Below are positions 33,049 through 40,089 of a DNA stretch of 40,089 nucleotides, one piece after another. Positions within the stretch are counted from its first letter, which is position 1. The number at the start of each line of letters is the position of its first letter. The notes below the pieces were generated by a model, which saw only the letters and a program-made list of their open reading frames with translations, ran no database searches and was not told where the DNA came from. Source of the stretch: Syntrophorhabdaceae bacterium (lineage in GTDB: Bacteria; Desulfobacterota; Syntrophorhabdia; Syntrophorhabdales; Syntrophorhabdaceae); NCBI GenBank assembly GCA_026415675.1, contig JAOAGQ010000053.1:1-40089 (forward strand), in the 5' to 3' direction. Made by a program: the position numbers and the translations under genes.

Positions 33049-33085
33049 ACAGGGTTATTAGTTGTTGAATAAAGGGAGGACGAAG

Positions 33086-33493
33086 ATGGCTATACTCGAT
33101 GATATCAAAAGGTTGGGCCTTGAACTTGCCCCTCAGATCAAGGAAGAGGTGGACAGGATCGTTGAGAGCATAAATACGGAGATTAAGGATGAGTACGTAA
33201 GAGGCGCCCTGATCGAGGGCGCGGTTGGGGAGTTTCTCATGGCCTTCTGCCCCGATGTGATGGATGCGATCATAAAGGACAAAGAGAGGGAAAATCAGGA
33301 GTGGTTGAGGAAATGCCAGAGAAAATACGATGAAAAAGGAAACAGGGTATGCGAGGAAGAGTTCTGCCCTAATTCAGAGGATGTTGCCCCTTGTGTGTAC
33401 TGTGGCAGATACATCTGCAGGGCCCACAGCTTTCACGATGAAAAGAGATGCTGTTATGAATGCTGGGAGTTCCATTTTGGTGAAAAAAATTAA
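33086..33493 (+). CDS. Small cytoplasmic protein with a C-terminal Cys/His zinc-ribbon-like motif
   Basis: I do not recognise the family. The start at ATG 33086 follows GGGAGG at ideal distance; the annotated-looking ATG/TTG upstream lacks one. The 135-aa product has a helical acidic N-terminal half (about 1-75). Its Cys-rich tail has the spacing C-x2-C-x4-C-x2-H, then C-C-x2-C (CVYCGRYICRAH, RCCYEC), preceded by further Cys in CEEEFC. This looks like a treble-clef or B-box-type zinc site. No signal peptide. It stands alone between der and the PEP-CTERM gene. Confidence 0.7.
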   Translation: MAILDDIKRLGLELAPQIKEEVDRIVESINTEIKDEYVRGALIEGAVGEFLMAFCPDVMDAIIKDKERENQEWLRKCQRKYDEKGNRVCEEEFCPNSEDVAPCVYCGRYICRAHSFHDEKRCCYECWEFHFGEKN

Positions 33494-33594: not shown

Positions 33595-34215
33595 ATGAAA
33601 AAATATTCTTTTTATAGGGTTATATTATTTTTTGTCCTTTTACTTCTGGTAATTATAACAGATGGAAGGGCGGATAATATATTAAACCTCAGAACCCTCC
33701 CGAATACAACCTATTATGGATACTATGTAGGGGCTATCGGCGGTAACATAGACGGGGGCTATGCGATGAAATTTTACTGCAACGATTTCTCTACAACCAC
33801 GTACATTCCCAGTTCCTTTGCCGTTGCTATAAGTACCCTCTCCGACTTATCCCAGACAAAGTTTGGGGGTAGCCCGGATGCCCTCCTTAAATATCAACAG
33901 GCAGGATGGCTTATAAGTCAGATGGAATCCAACCCTTCTCAGGTTGGCCCCATCCAGTTCGCTATCTGGAACCTTTTTTCAAATGATGTACCTACTGTAC
34001 CGGGGGCCCAAGATTGGCTTGCCTCTGCCCGTTCTATAAATACTTCAAGCTTTAACTTTTCAGAGATAAGGGTATATACACCAACAAATACAAGGAACCA
34101 GGAGTTTATAGGCGGCACAGTCCATTCCCTCGATGAACCATCGGTGCTTATCCTGATCATAGCGGGGTTATTGGGTACAACCCTTTTTATAAAAGTTCGC
34201 TGCAAGAAGGCTTAA
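33595..34215 (+). CDS. Exported protein with a PEP-CTERM-like sorting signal
   Basis: The 206-aa protein has a signal peptide (about 1-27). Its C-terminal tail has the order of a PEP-CTERM signal: DEPS, about 20 hydrophobic residues (VLILIIAGLLGTTLFIKV), then RCKKA. The middle part (YCNDFSTTTYIPSSF, then a stretch with IQFAIWNLF) resembles other PEP-CTERM proteins that carry an A-IQLAIWE-type segment. Such proteins are processed by an exosortase/archaeosortase-type protease and linked to extracellular polysaccharide. The motif has D where canonical tails have P before EP. No exosortase gene lies in the window. Start codon follows TTAGGGGG at 33583-33590. Confidence 0.78.
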   Translation: MKKYSFYRVILFFVLLLLVIITDGRADNILNLRTLPNTTYYGYYVGAIGGNIDGGYAMKFYCNDFSTTTYIPSSFAVAISTLSDLSQTKFGGSPDALLKYQQAGWLISQMESNPSQVGPIQFAIWNLFSNDVPTVPGAQDWLASARSINTSSFNFSEIRVYTPTNTRNQEFIGGTVHSLDEPSVLILIIAGLLGTTLFIKVRCKKA

Positions 34216-34500: not shown

Positions 34501-36480
34501 ATGAGGTACGCAGAAACAGGGTATAATTTGGAAGTCGATTTGTCAACAGGAAACATAGAGAGGGTCGAGAGTGATCCAAAGATGACGGAACTTTTTATCG
34601 GTGGTCTTGGTACAAACTCGAAGATCCTATGGGACAGGGTTCCTCCTGAGGTTGAGCCTTTTTCTCCTGACAATATACTGATCTTCAGCACAGGTCTTCT
34701 ATGTGGCACCCCTGCCCCAGGCGCGAACAGGACTATCGTTTCAACCTTCTCCCCCCAGACGAACCTGATGGCTTACTCCATGATGGGGGGTTTCTGGGCC
34801 CCTGAACTGAAGTACGCAGGGTATGACAAGGTGATTATCCGGGGGAAATCCCCAAAGCTCGTCTATCTTCTCATCACCAACGATAAGGTGGAGTTAAGGG
34901 ACGCCACTCATCTAAAAGGTAAGGGGACCCTTGAAACGGCTACCCTCATAAAAGAAGAGCTAAACGATCCTAAAGTACAGGTTGCCTCCATCGGCCTTGC
35001 CGGGGAAAACAGGGTCTTTTTTGCCTCCATAGAGCAGGGAAGGTCAAGTGCAAGCCGCCTCGGCATCGGCGGTGTCATGGGGGATAAAGGTCTTAAGGCC
35101 ATTGCGGTGAGGGGAAAAAGGGATGTAAACATAGCGAGGCCTGCAGAATTTATAAAATACTGTAATGATATCCTCGAATATATAAAGTTCAGGGCAAATA
35201 ACCCCATAAAGGGTGTTCCCCCGATACTTGCAACCCTCGGCTCCCCCCAGGAGATGGCCTTACACGATGAGGAATGGCATACGACGAGTTTTAGCTGGGG
35301 TCATGCCCGTTTCCGTAGAAAAGACTTCTGGACCCCCGAGATTGCAGAGAGATGGACGAAGATACAGGATAGCACCGTTGAACGTCTGATCAGCTGCTAT
35401 AACTGTCCAATGAGGTGTGGTGGTATCATCATACATCCCATGCTGAATAGGTTTATGATGAAGTGCTACTCAAAGCTCACATACCTCATGGCAGCGGTCT
35501 CCGACGATTTAGGCTTTGCGTTTAAGATTACGGGTCTCGCCCAGGAATACGGTGTCGATGGCTTCACAACACCACAGGTGATGGCCTTTGCGATAGAGCT
35601 TTACGAGGCAGGCATCCTAACCGACAGTGATATGCCCGATTTTCCCAAATCAAACGAAGATAGGTTCTTCTATCTCCTCGATAAGATCGTAAGAAGGGAG
35701 GGCATCGGTGATGTCCTCGCGGATGGGGTCTACTGGGCTGCCCGCAAGATAGGTAGAGGAGCTGAACAGTATGACCATAATACCACAAGGAAACACGAAC
35801 AGATGGTCATAAAACTGGGCATGTTAAACCCCTTATACTACCTCATGTACGGTACAGGGGAGAAGGGGAATATCACCCAGATAGAGGGCCAGATACCACA
35901 GGCCCCTCTCCCGGAGGATACAAAGGAAGAGTTCGTAAAAGACTGGATCCATCCACCGAAGGAGTGGGCTGAAGAATTCAAACAGTTCATCCTCGAATGG
36001 GGACGGGGAGAAAATGTATTCCCCTTTTATCCACCCATATCCACGATCTGCAAGCTCGTGGAATGGCAGGAGATGATGCATTACATAGATGACTCAACGG
36101 GGGTATGCGCAGGTCTATCCTCCTTCCCCATCAAACCACCTTACCATATCCACAACTATCCACTCATAATATCGGCAGGGACAGGTCTCGATATCGATGA
36201 TGAAGGCTTATACAGGATGGCCAAGAGAAACCGTAACCTCTTAAGGGCAATAAATATCAGAAGGGGCTTAAAGAGACAGGATGAGAAGCCCCCTCAAGAC
36301 CACTGGAAGAAGAGATTCCCCGAGTATGAGGAAAAACTCCAGGATGAGTACTATAAGTTTAAAGGATGGGATAAGAACGGTGTCCCCACAAAGGAGACGC
36401 TGAAGGATTTAGGTCTCGATTATATCGCTGAAGACTTAGAAAAAAGAGGGATCTATGACAATGGAACAGAAAGCAAGTAA
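34501..36480 (+). CDS. bamB: Class II benzoyl-CoA reductase, tungsten active-site subunit BamB
   Basis: The 659-aa protein belongs to the aldehyde:ferredoxin oxidoreductase family. It closely follows BamB of Geobacter as I recall it, starting MRYAETGYNLEVDLS. Residues I remember from the BamB structure fall at the same numbers: Glu251, His260 (EEWHTTSFSWGHAR) and Cys322, a tungsten ligand. Cluster cysteines are Cys299, Cys302 and Cys306 (CYNCPMRC), with Cys536 as likely fourth. It would bind tungsten bis-metallopterin and reduce the aromatic ring of benzoyl-CoA to cyclohexa-1,5-diene-1-carbonyl-CoA without ATP. The genes after it (bamC, bamD, an HdrA-like gene) fit the Bam complex. In syntrophs the same enzyme can run in reverse. 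It overlaps bamC by 26 bases. Confidence 0.92.
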   Translation: MRYAETGYNLEVDLSTGNIERVESDPKMTELFIGGLGTNSKILWDRVPPEVEPFSPDNILIFSTGLLCGTPAPGANRTIVSTFSPQTNLMAYSMMGGFWAPELKYAGYDKVIIRGKSPKLVYLLITNDKVELRDATHLKGKGTLETATLIKEELNDPKVQVASIGLAGENRVFFASIEQGRSSASRLGIGGVMGDKGLKAIAVRGKRDVNIARPAEFIKYCNDILEYIKFRANNPIKGVPPILATLGSPQEMALHDEEWHTTSFSWGHARFRRKDFWTPEIAERWTKIQDSTVERLISCYNCPMRCGGIIIHPMLNRFMMKCYSKLTYLMAAVSDDLGFAFKITGLAQEYGVDGFTTPQVMAFAIELYEAGILTDSDMPDFPKSNEDRFFYLLDKIVRREGIGDVLADGVYWAARKIGRGAEQYDHNTTRKHEQMVIKLGMLNPLYYLMYGTGEKGNITQIEGQIPQAPLPEDTKEEFVKDWIHPPKEWAEEFKQFILEWGRGENVFPFYPPISTICKLVEWQEMMHYIDDSTGVCAGLSSFPIKPPYHIHNYPLIISAGTGLDIDDEGLYRMAKRNRNLLRAINIRRGLKRQDEKPPQDHWKKRFPEYEEKLQDEYYKFKGWDKNGVPTKETLKDLGLDYIAEDLEKRGIYDNGTESK

Positions 36481-37009
36481 TAAAAAAAAGGTAAAGGTAA
36501 TAAAGATAGACCTGGATAAATGCAATGGCTGCAGGGCATGTGAGGTGATATGTTCTGCCTTCCATGCAAATCCCAAATACAGCAGCAACAATCCAGCAAG
36601 GTCGAGAATTCGTGTCTATTTCGATCCGCTCAAAAACAAATACGTTCCTGTCTATGCAGGGGAATACACCCCTGCGGAGTGTATGGGCAGGGACAAATAC
36701 ATCATAAACGGAAAGGAATACGACGAATGCGGGTTCTGCAGGGCCTCTTGTCCATCAAGGGACCTCTTTAAAGAACCGGATTCAGGCCTTCCCCTTAAGT
36801 GCGATATGTGTGAGGATGATCCGCCCCAGGAAGAACCACTCTGCGTGAAGTGGTGCCTTGTCGATGCCCTAACATACGAGGAAAGGGAGGAAGAGGGAGA
36901 GGAAGAGGTCAAACCTGAAGATGTAGAGATCGGTTTGAATGCCCTCGTCGACAAGTACGGTCTGGATAAGGTCGTCGACACCGTCGCCCGTATGACCCAG
37001 AAAGATTAA
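36455..37009 (+). CDS. bamC: Benzoyl-CoA reductase iron-sulfur subunit BamC
   Basis: The 184-aa polyferredoxin-like protein has twelve cysteines that fit three [4Fe-4S] clusters: Cys23/26/29/33 (CNGCRACEVIC), Cys92/95/99 (CGFCRASC), Cys116/119/130/134, and an extra Cys76. It is HycB/DMSO-reductase-like in layout. In the known complex, BamC passes electrons to BamB. It starts inside the end of bamB (26-base overlap), which points to coupled synthesis in fixed ratio. ATG 36455 or 36461 could be the start. The C-terminus (about 140-184) is acidic and helical. Confidence 0.88.
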   Translation: MTMEQKASNKKKVKVIKIDLDKCNGCRACEVICSAFHANPKYSSNNPARSRIRVYFDPLKNKYVPVYAGEYTPAECMGRDKYIINGKEYDECGFCRASCPSRDLFKEPDSGLPLKCDMCEDDPPQEEPLCVKWCLVDALTYEEREEEGEEEVKPEDVEIGLNALVDKYGLDKVVDTVARMTQKD

Positions 37010-37033: not shown

Positions 37034-38185
37034 GTGGAGACCATAGCGCCTTTTAAAGAAGTTATAGACGAGGTAAAGGCTTTAGGCGGTGAGGCCGTCT
37101 CATACTGCTATCAGTGCGGTAAGTGTGATACGGTATGCCCCTGGAACAAGGTAAAAACATTCAGCATGCGCCGACTGATCAGGGAAGCTACCTTTGGTTT
37201 AACGGAGATAGAAAAGGACGAGATATGGAGATGCACCACCTGCGGTAAATGCCCCCAGAGATGTCCAAGGGATGTAAAACAGATAGACGACATGGTGGCC
37301 TTAAGGAGAATGGCAACAGGCTATAATGTCTTCCCCTCATCGGTAAAACCTATCAGGACGGTGAGTACAGGTTTAACATCCCAGGGCAACCCCTTCAACG
37401 AGGATAGAAAGACAAGGGCAGACTGGGCAGAGGGACTTTCCGTAAAACAGTTCACCGAAGGTACAGAGTTTCTCTATTTTCCCGGATGTTATCTCTGTTA
37501 TGACCCGAGACTGAAAAAGGTCGCCCAGGCAACGGTTAAGGTCCTGAAAAAGGCGGATGTAGACTTCGGTATCCTCGGAACAAAGGAGAACTGCTGTGGT
37601 GAGAGCATTAGAAAGACAGGGAACGAGCAACTCTTCAAACGCCTCGCCAGGGAGAATATAAAAACCTTTATAGACAACGGCGTTAAAAAGATCATCGTCT
37701 CCTCTCCCCACTGTTACCATACCTTTAAAAACGAATACCCTGAGTTTAACGTGAACTTTCAGGTGATCCATATGTCCCAGTTTCTCCTCGACCTAATAAA
37801 GGAGGGGAGGCTAAAAATAGAGCACGGGTTAGACAAGAGGGTTACCTACCACGATCCCTGTTATCTGGGAAGGCACAACGGGATATTCGATGAACCGAGG
37901 GCGGTTTTGAAAAATATTCCGGGTCTTGAACTCGTAGAGATGGAAGAATCTGAGCTTGACAGTCTCTGTTGTGGTATGGGGGGAGGAAGGGTATGGATGG
38001 AAACGGAGAAACATGAGAGGTTCTCCAACATAAGGCTTGAACAGGCAACAAAAATAGGTGCCCAGGTCCTTGCTACAGCCTGTCCATACTGTATTACAGC
38101 CCTTGAAGATAGTAGACTTGTGATGAATTACGGAGACTCAATAGAGGTAAAGGATATTACAGAGATTTTACAGGAAGTAATCTAA
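37034..38185 (+). CDS. bamD: HdrD/HdrB-like iron-sulfur subunit BamD
   Basis: The 383-aa protein has two N-terminal [4Fe-4S] motifs (Cys25/28/31/35 in CYQCGKCDTVC and Cys67/70/73/77 in CTTCGKCPQRC). Two CCG domains follow: one with ENCCGES and later SPHCYHTF, the other with DSLCCGMGGGRVWME and later ACPYC. This is the HdrD or HdrC-HdrB fusion layout, which in heterodisulfide reductases builds noncubane clusters. In the Bam complex this subunit links the HdrA-like flavoprotein to BamBC. GTG is the start, with AGAGG about 9 bases upstream. The gap after bamC is 24 bases. Confidence 0.9.
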   Translation: METIAPFKEVIDEVKALGGEAVSYCYQCGKCDTVCPWNKVKTFSMRRLIREATFGLTEIEKDEIWRCTTCGKCPQRCPRDVKQIDDMVALRRMATGYNVFPSSVKPIRTVSTGLTSQGNPFNEDRKTRADWAEGLSVKQFTEGTEFLYFPGCYLCYDPRLKKVAQATVKVLKKADVDFGILGTKENCCGESIRKTGNEQLFKRLARENIKTFIDNGVKKIIVSSPHCYHTFKNEYPEFNVNFQVIHMSQFLLDLIKEGRLKIEHGLDKRVTYHDPCYLGRHNGIFDEPRAVLKNIPGLELVEMEESELDSLCCGMGGGRVWMETEKHERFSNIRLEQATKIGAQVLATACPYCITALEDSRLVMNYGDSIEVKDITEILQEVI

Positions 38186-38209
38186 GCGGGGTTTCATAGC
38201 CGGTTGCTT

Positions 38210-39010
38210 ATGGAAAGAAAAGAAGATTCACCGGAGATAAAAGGGGTAGCATCCCATATTGAATGTGATAGATATACCGATGATAGCCGGCAGAGGACAG
38301 AAGTCCATGTACCGATGGAGACAGAACTCACGATTTATGTGAACCTCAAAGAACTCGTTACGATCCTATGCACCCCGACAAAACTCAACTTCCTCGTCCT
38401 TGGTTTTCTTTATGGTGAAGGTATTATCTCAGGCCTTAAGGATGTCTTAAGTATGAGGGTATGTGAAGATGAGCTTATGGCAGATGTAAGGCTTACAAAA
38501 CCTGATTATGAACCCCCTGGACTTAGGGTACTCACTTCAGGTTGTGGCGGTGGTTCTTCCTTCACCCAGAAGGGTAAAAAGGTCATCTCCGATGTAACCG
38601 TTACCCCGAAACAGATATACTCCCTTATGAGGGAACTTCAAGAGAAGATGGATATGTACAGGTTTTGTGGTGGGGTACATACATCGGCCCTGGGAGACAA
38701 AAACGGTCTTATTGTGGTGGCAGAGGATATCGGCAGGCATAATACCATCGATAAGATTCAGGGTGAATCCCTTATGATGTCGATCCCCACAAAAGACCGC
38801 CTGCTTCTAAGTACAGGCCGGGTCTCCTCTGAGATGCTCCTTAAAGCATCGAGAATGGAGGTGCCGATAGTCGTCTCCCGCCATTCTTCAACGGCAAGGG
38901 CTATAGAGTTTGCAAAAGAACTTGGAATAACCTTGATCGGGTATGCCCGGGGGAATCGCCTTATGGTCTATTCCCACCCCGAAAGAGTGAGCTTGTCCGG
39001 GGACGGTTAA
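38210..39010 (+). CDS. FdhD-like sulfurtransferase/cofactor-maturation protein inside the bam cluster
   Basis: I start at ATG 38210; the in-frame TTG at 38204 is less likely. The 266-aa protein has the FdhD core: GFLYGEGII, TSGCGGGSS (Cys112), FCGGVHTSAL, EDIGRHNTIDK, and STGRVSSEMLLKASRM. FdhD moves sulfur from IscS to the molybdenum or tungsten bis-MGD cofactor of formate dehydrogenases. Its CxxC motif (CGVC-like in E. coli) here reads CGGG, so the second cysteine is missing. The position between bamD and bamE suggests cofactor maturation for BamB, but no formate dehydrogenase gene is in view, so a link to one nearby cannot be excluded. The ribosome site is weak. Confidence 0.85.
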   Translation: MERKEDSPEIKGVASHIECDRYTDDSRQRTEVHVPMETELTIYVNLKELVTILCTPTKLNFLVLGFLYGEGIISGLKDVLSMRVCEDELMADVRLTKPDYEPPGLRVLTSGCGGGSSFTQKGKKVISDVTVTPKQIYSLMRELQEKMDMYRFCGGVHTSALGDKNGLIVVAEDIGRHNTIDKIQGESLMMSIPTKDRLLLSTGRVSSEMLLKASRMEVPIVVSRHSSTARAIEFAKELGITLIGYARGNRLMVYSHPERVSLSGDG

Positions 39011-39067: not shown

Positions 39068-40089
39068 GTGGAAAAAGTACTGGTCCTTAAAGAGAATATC
39101 AAACAGATCATGAAAAACTTAAGAGACAGCAACTTTGCCGATGTTATGGTTGTAGGAGGGGGTATAAGCGGCATACAGGCCTCCCTTGACCTTGCCAATG
39201 CAGGGTTTAAGGTCTATCTCGTCGATCGGGCGCCATCCATAGGGGGACACATGGCCCAGCTCGACAAGACCTTTCCCACGAATGAGTGTTCCATCTGAAT
39301 ACTCTCCCCGAAACTGGTCGAGGTCGGCCGGCATCCAAACATCGAGGTTTTAACGTATACCGAGGTTGATAGGGTAGAAGGGGAATCGGGGGATTTCGAG
39401 GTAACCCTTGTGAGAAAACCGAGGTATATCATAGAGGATAAGTGTACGGGTTGTACCACCTGCGTCGAATACTGTCCTGTAAAATATCCGGATAAGTTCA
39501 ATCAGGAGATCTCAAAGAATAAGGCGGTCCACATATATTTTGCCCAGGCCATCCCCCTTATAACGTATATAGATGAGAGTTGCCTCTACTTGAAGGAGAA
39601 GAAGTGCCGCATCTGTGAGGCGGTATGTGAAAATAAGGCGATAGACTTTACCCAGAAACCGGAAAAGGTCGCCGTTAAGGTAGGGGCCATCATCCTTGCC
39701 GGAGGCTTTGAGCCCTTTGACCCAAGGATAAGGGATGAATACTGTTACGGTAAGTTTGCAAATGTGGTAACAAGCATGGACTTTGAGAGACTTTTGAGTT
39801 CCACAGGCCCCTACGAAGGAGAAATCAGAAGGGGCTCCGACCTAAAACACCCCCACCGCATAGCGTGGATCCAGTGTGTAGGTTCAAGGCAGGTGATCCC
39901 CGGGGGGAATAGTTACTGTTCTGCCGTATGCTGTACCTATACCCAGAAGCAGGTGATCCTGACAAAGGACCACGATGCCGATGCGGAGTGTACCATATTC
40001 CATAACGACATCCGTTCCTACGGGAAGGACTTTGAGAGGTTCTACCAGAGGGCAGAGAACTTACCCGGAGTCCGTTTCATAAGAAGCTA
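39068..40089 (+). CDS. bamE: HdrA-like flavoprotein with in-frame UGA (selenocysteine), BamE, cut by the window end
   Basis: The visible 340 codons start at GTG 39068 (AGAGGTG upstream). They encode an FAD domain ([27 protein letters not shown], residues about 27-55), then FPTNECSI, an in-frame TGA at codon 77 (39296-39298), and [23 protein letters not shown]. Most HdrA proteins have Cys at the TGA position, so selenocysteine fits. The frame then stays open for 263 codons, with ferredoxin motifs [11 protein letters not shown] and [11 protein letters not shown]-related [11 protein letters not shown], and CVGSR. HdrA is the electron-bifurcating flavoprotein of heterodisulfide reductase, and BamE is its counterpart in the benzoyl-CoA reductase complex. 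The rest lies to the right. Plain ORF calling would wrongly stop it at 76 aa. Confidence 0.9.
39296..39327 (+). promoter_or_regulatory. UGA codon and SECIS-like hairpin for selenocysteine insertion
   Basis: After TGA (39296-39298) the stem CCGA (39308-39311)/TCGG (39324-39327) and an inner CT/AG pair (39314-39315/39321-39322) close a GGTCG loop (39316-39320). The loop begins 17 bases after the UGA and carries the GGU of bacterial SECIS loops, such as E. coli fdhF (AGGUCU). The AA/G internal bulge is also typical. All bases are coding too. Confidence 0.75.

Follow-up and report, generated by a model that had tools for sequence, protein, structure and literature searches.

An fdhD gene embedded in bam operons encodes a candidate tungsten-cofactor maturase for BamB

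In the bam operon of a Syntrophorhabdaceae bacterium, an intact gene of the fdhD family lies between bamD and bamE, and fdhD genes recur near bam genes in many other genomes. We propose that the bam-linked FdhD is probably a chaperone or maturase of the tungsten cofactor of BamB, the catalytic subunit of class II benzoyl-CoA reductase; we infer BamB as the client and cofactor delivery as the act. To our knowledge, FdhD has so far been regarded as dedicated to formate dehydrogenases, and we found no description in the literature of the route by which the tungsten cofactor reaches BamB. The recurrence of the arrangement, the clade formed by the FdhDs concerned and the existence of genomes with a bam FdhD and no canonical formate dehydrogenase are new here. 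The position of the gene was already visible in ORM2a, in which FdhD is listed between BamD and BamE and was found by proteomics to be expressed with the Bam proteins (2026, PMC13101534); that position is the same as here, and the report gives an annotation only, arguing for no client or function.

Results

The window, by which we mean the whole stretch of 40,089 nucleotides that was analysed, holds bamB, bamC, bamD, fdhD and bamE on one strand with short gaps. The class II Bam gene set is represented by B, C, D and part of E, the contig ending inside bamE. The features are as follows.

34501..36480, + strand: bamB, W-containing catalytic subunit of class II benzoyl-CoA reductase, 659 aa, AFOR_N/AFOR_C
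36455..37009, + strand: bamC, polyferredoxin subunit with Fer4 matches, next to bamB in nearly all loci
37034..38185, + strand: bamD, HdrBC-like subunit with CCG and Fer4 matches
38204..39010 (TTG 38204 or ATG 38210), + strand: bam-linked fdhD, 268 aa, PF02634, with an AlphaFold model
38264..38266, + strand: codon of Cys21 of the bam FdhD, a residue conserved in 95% of the FdhDs of the bamD-bamE clade but rare outside it
38534..38554, + strand: loop motif TSGCGGG, residues 111-117; its one cysteine, C114, lies opposite E. coli C121 in the alignment
39068..40089, + strand: bamE, HdrA-like subunit, in-frame TGA 39296-39298 taken as a Sec codon, truncated where the contig ends

The BamB of the window carries E251, H255, E257, H260 and Cys322 at the residue numbers of the published Geobacter BamB (PMC12096430); judged by these residues, the protein encoded in the fdhD operon is a genuine BamB, with Cys322 as its predicted tungsten ligand. 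The copies of bamD found in bam loci are 59-82% identical.

The preliminary description placed an fdhD-like gene between bamD and bamE, and both the profile match and the operon position confirm it. The gene begins 24 bp from the bamD stop (counted to the ATG) and is followed by 57 bp up to the bamE start at 39068. Its product matches the Pfam family PF02634 (FdhD-NarQ) at 1.8e-69, with residues 38-262 covering profile positions 2-236 of 237; it scores 168.9 bits against NCBIfam TIGR00129, above the cut-off of 140.9, and falls below the cut-off of NF001943. The AlphaFold model has a pLDDT of 89, with disorder at residues 111-119, and its best PDB matches, normalized by target length, are 2pw9 (TM 0.89) and 4pde (TM 0.82), with no other good match. 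The family-invariant residues E39, G67, H159, D175, G177, R178, H179, D183, G187, R206, E210 and K214 are all kept, the single exception among near-invariant residues being a common proline at position 41. The gene is an ordinary, intact and complete member of the FdhD family; the family functions of sulfur transfer and cofactor binding for formate dehydrogenase are putative in its case.

The absence of the second cysteine of the CxxC motif, also pointed out in the preliminary description, stands: the loop reads LTSGCGGGSSF, the codon of Cys114 lies at 38543-38545, and the place of E. coli C124 holds no cysteine, which leaves C114 alone in the loop. What does not stand is the special one-cysteine mechanism proposed with it. 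In a census of 149 FdhD sequences plus that of E. coli, the single-cysteine loop was the commonest form overall, and a mechanism particular to the bam protein was rejected because of this. Such a loop occurs in all 7 FdhDs adjoining a formate dehydrogenase gene, in 16 of the 18 encoded between bamD and bamE, in 17 of the 37 found elsewhere near bam genes and in 61 of the 88 for which no bam or formate dehydrogenase gene was detected in the vicinity. The commonest loop, GCGxG, is also found beside formate dehydrogenase genes; the 2pw9 structure, with TSGCGGTG, likewise has one cysteine; and two bam-linked FdhDs (G024 and G342) have no loop cysteine at all. The CxxC motif was previously reported not to be conserved in the family, its cysteines being dispensable for active formate dehydrogenase (PMC6239281). 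CxxC is not a defining feature of the FdhD/NarQ family, and the single-cysteine motif of the bam FdhD is, by comparison of the loops, an ordinary one. A gene of the cysteine desulfurase family adjoins single-cysteine FdhDs outside bam loci (L115, L116, L119, L123, L197, L260 and L265).

To see how far the arrangement extends, the preliminary description had called for a survey of bam clusters, and this survey yielded many further cases. A BamB scan returned 80 named loci, five of which (Peptococcaceae BRH_c8a, two Bacillota, Deltaproteobacteria UBA6106 and Dehalococcoidia) encode between bamD and bamE an FdhD 53-63% identical to that of the window; further genomes share the arrangement, and other loci of the scan have more distant FdhDs nearby. 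Within the phylum, 105 of 395 genomes gave a strong BamB match. Among the 78 BamB genomes checked with the FdhD profile, the window genome included, 67 contain FdhD, and in 34 the distance between an fdhD and a bamB is 12 kb or less; random placement would give 0.89 such genomes. Two genomes beyond these 34 (G286 and G245) have the order bamD-fdhD-bamE on a contig other than that of bamB. The operon link between bam and fdhD exceeds chance and is real and broad. The statement that fdhD is not known from the Geobacter bam cluster is compatible with the Geobacter-titled loci, none of which shows one in the flank examined. In several genomes, an fdhD lies 6-9 kb from bamB. Elsewhere, fdhD is accompanied by other cofactor genes, in the order fdhD-moeA-moeA/PBP-mobB-bamB in one genome (G097); in two betaproteobacterial loci (L069 and L072), bamB is preceded by Moco genes together with fdhD and moeA. 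One Bacillota contig (L015, 1-16600) carries two tandem bam clusters, the first with fdhD and bamG-I, the second lacking fdhD and bamD. The search of viral contigs gave nothing.

In a tree of 145 FdhDs, all 18 FdhDs encoded between bamD and bamE fall into one group of 20 (SH-aLRT 98) that spans Desulfobacterota, Bacillota and Chloroflexota and is marked by the conservation of Cys21. The other two members are an FdhD encoded beside bamB and bamD remnants (G108) and one with no bam gene nearby (G458). The remaining bam-near FdhDs belong to several separate lineages, in which the gene directly precedes bamB (G176, G305), precedes a bamB paralogue (G021, G223, G200), diverges from bamB (G306) or stands at the cluster end; where it lies upstream, the distance to bamB is 0.25-1.3 kb. 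The preliminary description had proposed to check whether bam-linked FdhDs form a clade with CGGG; the bamD-bamE proteins do form a clade, but CGGG is not special to it and the bam link also arises in other lineages. Because the label "near bam" changes at least 12 times on the tree even if only starred branches are trusted (a count that takes distances up to 12 kb and in which relatives are not independent), the distribution points to repeated recruitment of fdhD to bam loci. Coevolution of the bam FdhD with one type of BamB was considered but not seen: the FdhDs are scattered over the BamB tree, where the 13 bamD-bamE rows require 13 label changes. The BamD tree shows partial grouping and many losses, with 12 of 14 rows falling into one group of 26, so that these FdhDs track bamD to some degree. 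Reading frames of about 450-480 aa for FdhD in five loci (L125, L252, L253, L254 and L261) suggest a fusion with another domain.

The main competitor of BamB as client is formate dehydrogenase itself. FdhD would then be its usual maturation factor, merely coregulated with bam, since cells living on aromatic compounds, especially in syntrophy, need more formate dehydrogenase to dispose of electrons. We regard this as rather unlikely, though it is the alternative that survives best. Most BamB genomes also have formate dehydrogenases; a canonical enzyme is present in 36 of the 42 genomes searched for it, the window genome has a Sec-type one (on C20) as well as other molybdopterin enzymes, and the bam FdhD keeps the residues of its family, bar the proline mentioned above. 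However, a second FdhD of the CxxC type, on C50 of the window genome, could do that job. Moreover, the 42-genome set, which was chosen partly for having linked genes, shows FdhD at 12 kb or less from BamB in 18 of 27 genomes and at 12 kb or less from a canonical formate dehydrogenase in 0 of 24. In six genomes (G125, G169, G152, G245, G293 and G361), FdhD is present but no canonical formate dehydrogenase reaches the family cut-off; some of these genomes are incomplete or have formate dehydrogenase-like proteins below it. The clearest is G125 (99% complete): the bam FdhD is the sole FdhD there, and formate dehydrogenase has a single strong relative in this genome, a CISM protein that lacks the CHxP motif. 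No formate dehydrogenase operon lies near the fdhD of the window, other bam-linked fdhD genes exist and the CGGG form is not confined to genes linked to formate dehydrogenase; the opposite of each had been named beforehand as speaking against a role of fdhD in the bam cluster.

BamB-type genes were also compared with the rest of the AOR family. Across 27 genomes, 27 of 38 BamB-type genes lie near an fdhD, versus 3 of 111 other AOR-family genes; as these genomes were chosen partly for linkage, the contrast weighs more than the fractions. In two genomes, a second FdhD is encoded near an ordinary AOR. Genes of the molybdopterin oxidoreductase family stand beside BamB paralogues in four loci (L156 2638-4800, 720 aa; L158 7167; L166 9218; L169 15154) and possibly correspond to the Gmet_1810-like neighbour of bamB2. 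The CISM protein of L156 was considered as a formate dehydrogenase and rejected, as it has no CHxP motif and scores below the cut-off.

By profile, 11 of the 78 BamB genomes have no FdhD (G007, G012, G045, G050, G081, G086, G111, G140, G144, G258 and G356; 91-99% complete). One of them, G081, has the BamB closest to that of the window (79%), so that BamB can mature without FdhD, and FdhD would be helpful or replaceable for BamB, not essential. These 11 genomes have Sec-type formate dehydrogenase, and some other protein may mature both enzymes there.

Discussion

Our results keep the core of the earlier proposal, that fdhD serves the tungsten cofactor of BamB as a new class of client, in that the linkage goes beyond chance and BamB is its best explanation; its one-cysteine mechanism is given up. 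In the mechanism we propose, the usual client of FdhD would have shifted. FdhD would bind the tungsten-pterin cofactor or one of its late intermediates, protect it and hand it to apo-BamB, the Cys-ligated tungsten subunit, which would allow large amounts of BamB to be produced while cells grow on aromatics. Since the bamD-bamE FdhDs are scattered on the BamB tree and partly grouped on the BamD tree, a broad chaperone fits better than a partner specific to the BamB sequence. One point counts against BamB as the client: its cofactor, bis-MPT, bears no nucleotides. Known FdhDs, in contrast, bind a nucleotide-bearing cofactor, bis-MGD, through a GDP site that holds the guanine part (PMC10609526).

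Deletion of moeA1, mobB or fdhD in M. extorquens in each case abolishes tungsten insertion into the formate dehydrogenase FDH1 (PMC13197769), so FdhD can be needed for tungsten-cofactor loading and not only for sulfuration. Some bam loci carry fdhD together with moeA and mobB, the same set that FDH1 needs in M. extorquens (PMC13197769). In G. metallireducens, a Moco gene near bamB2 is induced on benzoate (PMC1924859).

Whether sulfur transfer is part of the process bears on two further readings. FdhD could be a dedicated factor for both late tungsten-cofactor delivery and sulfuration, recruited several times independently, with the low-potential tungsten site of BamB going through a sulfurated intermediate or retaining a labile sulfur ligand that is lost on purification; we consider this unlikely. 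A stronger form of the BamB-maturase proposal, overlapping with it, holds that FdhD places a sulfido or persulfide ligand on the BamB tungsten, as in formate dehydrogenase, and that this ligand is lost on purification. FdhD is known to sulfurate, and BamB and formate dehydrogenase share a cysteine-type protein ligand of the metal (Cys322), but we find this form improbable. According to crystal, EXAFS and bond-valence analyses, the sixth tungsten ligand of BamB is water (PMC12096430) or possibly CO (PMC11858030), and the two bam-linked FdhDs without a loop cysteine and the 11 BamB genomes without FdhD argue in the same direction. A lasting sulfido ligand on BamB, which the description of the sixth ligand as unsettled had left room for, is thus not supported and looks doubtful, given that published data favour O or CO and that 11 of 78 BamB genomes lack FdhD.

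The operon would encode some components of a Bam-formate dehydrogenase complex if FdhD matured a formate dehydrogenase docking on the HdrABC-like BamDE, as FdhAB does on HdrABC in methanogens, but this is very improbable. In its favour are the Hdr-like character of BamD and BamE and, in one genome (G231), a formate dehydrogenase gene some 6 kb away from bamB; against it, such a gene is absent from the bamD-fdhD-bamE operons examined and from the G125 genome.

Among characterized proteins, FdhD/FdsC of E. coli and Rhodobacter capsulatus (PF02634; 4pde) share with the bam FdhD the fold, the D-x-G-R-H motif, the R/E/K residues and the disordered Cys loop. The bam FdhD is only 22% identical to 4pde over the structural alignment, has one loop cysteine instead of two, and its gene is part of a benzoyl-CoA reductase operon and has no formate dehydrogenase genes as neighbours. 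The closest solved structure is that of the FdhD-like protein of Desulfotalea psychrophila (2pw9; 26% identity), with its single-cysteine loop. Another FdhD linked to an AOR-family enzyme is that of the CsWOR41/YdhV-type tungsten enzymes (PMC13328260), whose clade shares the Cys metal ligand of BamB (PMC12096430); it is encoded downstream of a periplasmic class V enzyme, and the authors only suggest a role for it (PMC13328260). If the BamB-maturase proposal is right, FdhD would have a second client, from the AOR family and with a nucleotide-free cofactor, which would change the view of what FdhD recognizes. FdhD would also supply what recombinant production of class II benzoyl-CoA reductase has lacked, and the question of the sixth ligand of BamB could be tested on enzyme made with versus without it.

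Other features of the window were also recorded. A 143-aa protein (33062-33493) has a cysteine-rich C terminus (CVYCGRYICRAHSFHDEKRCCYECW) and no Pfam match. Upstream of bamB, a 206-aa protein (33595-34215), also without a Pfam match, has a signal-like N terminus and, towards the C terminus, a hydrophobic segment with KVRCKKA after it, an arrangement that resembles a sorting signal. The in-frame TGA of bamE (39296-39298) lies within ECSI(U)ILSPK, and the same TGA is found in 12 other loci, some of them overlapping; a selenocysteine-containing BamE is known in Desulfococcus multivorans (PMC5109826).
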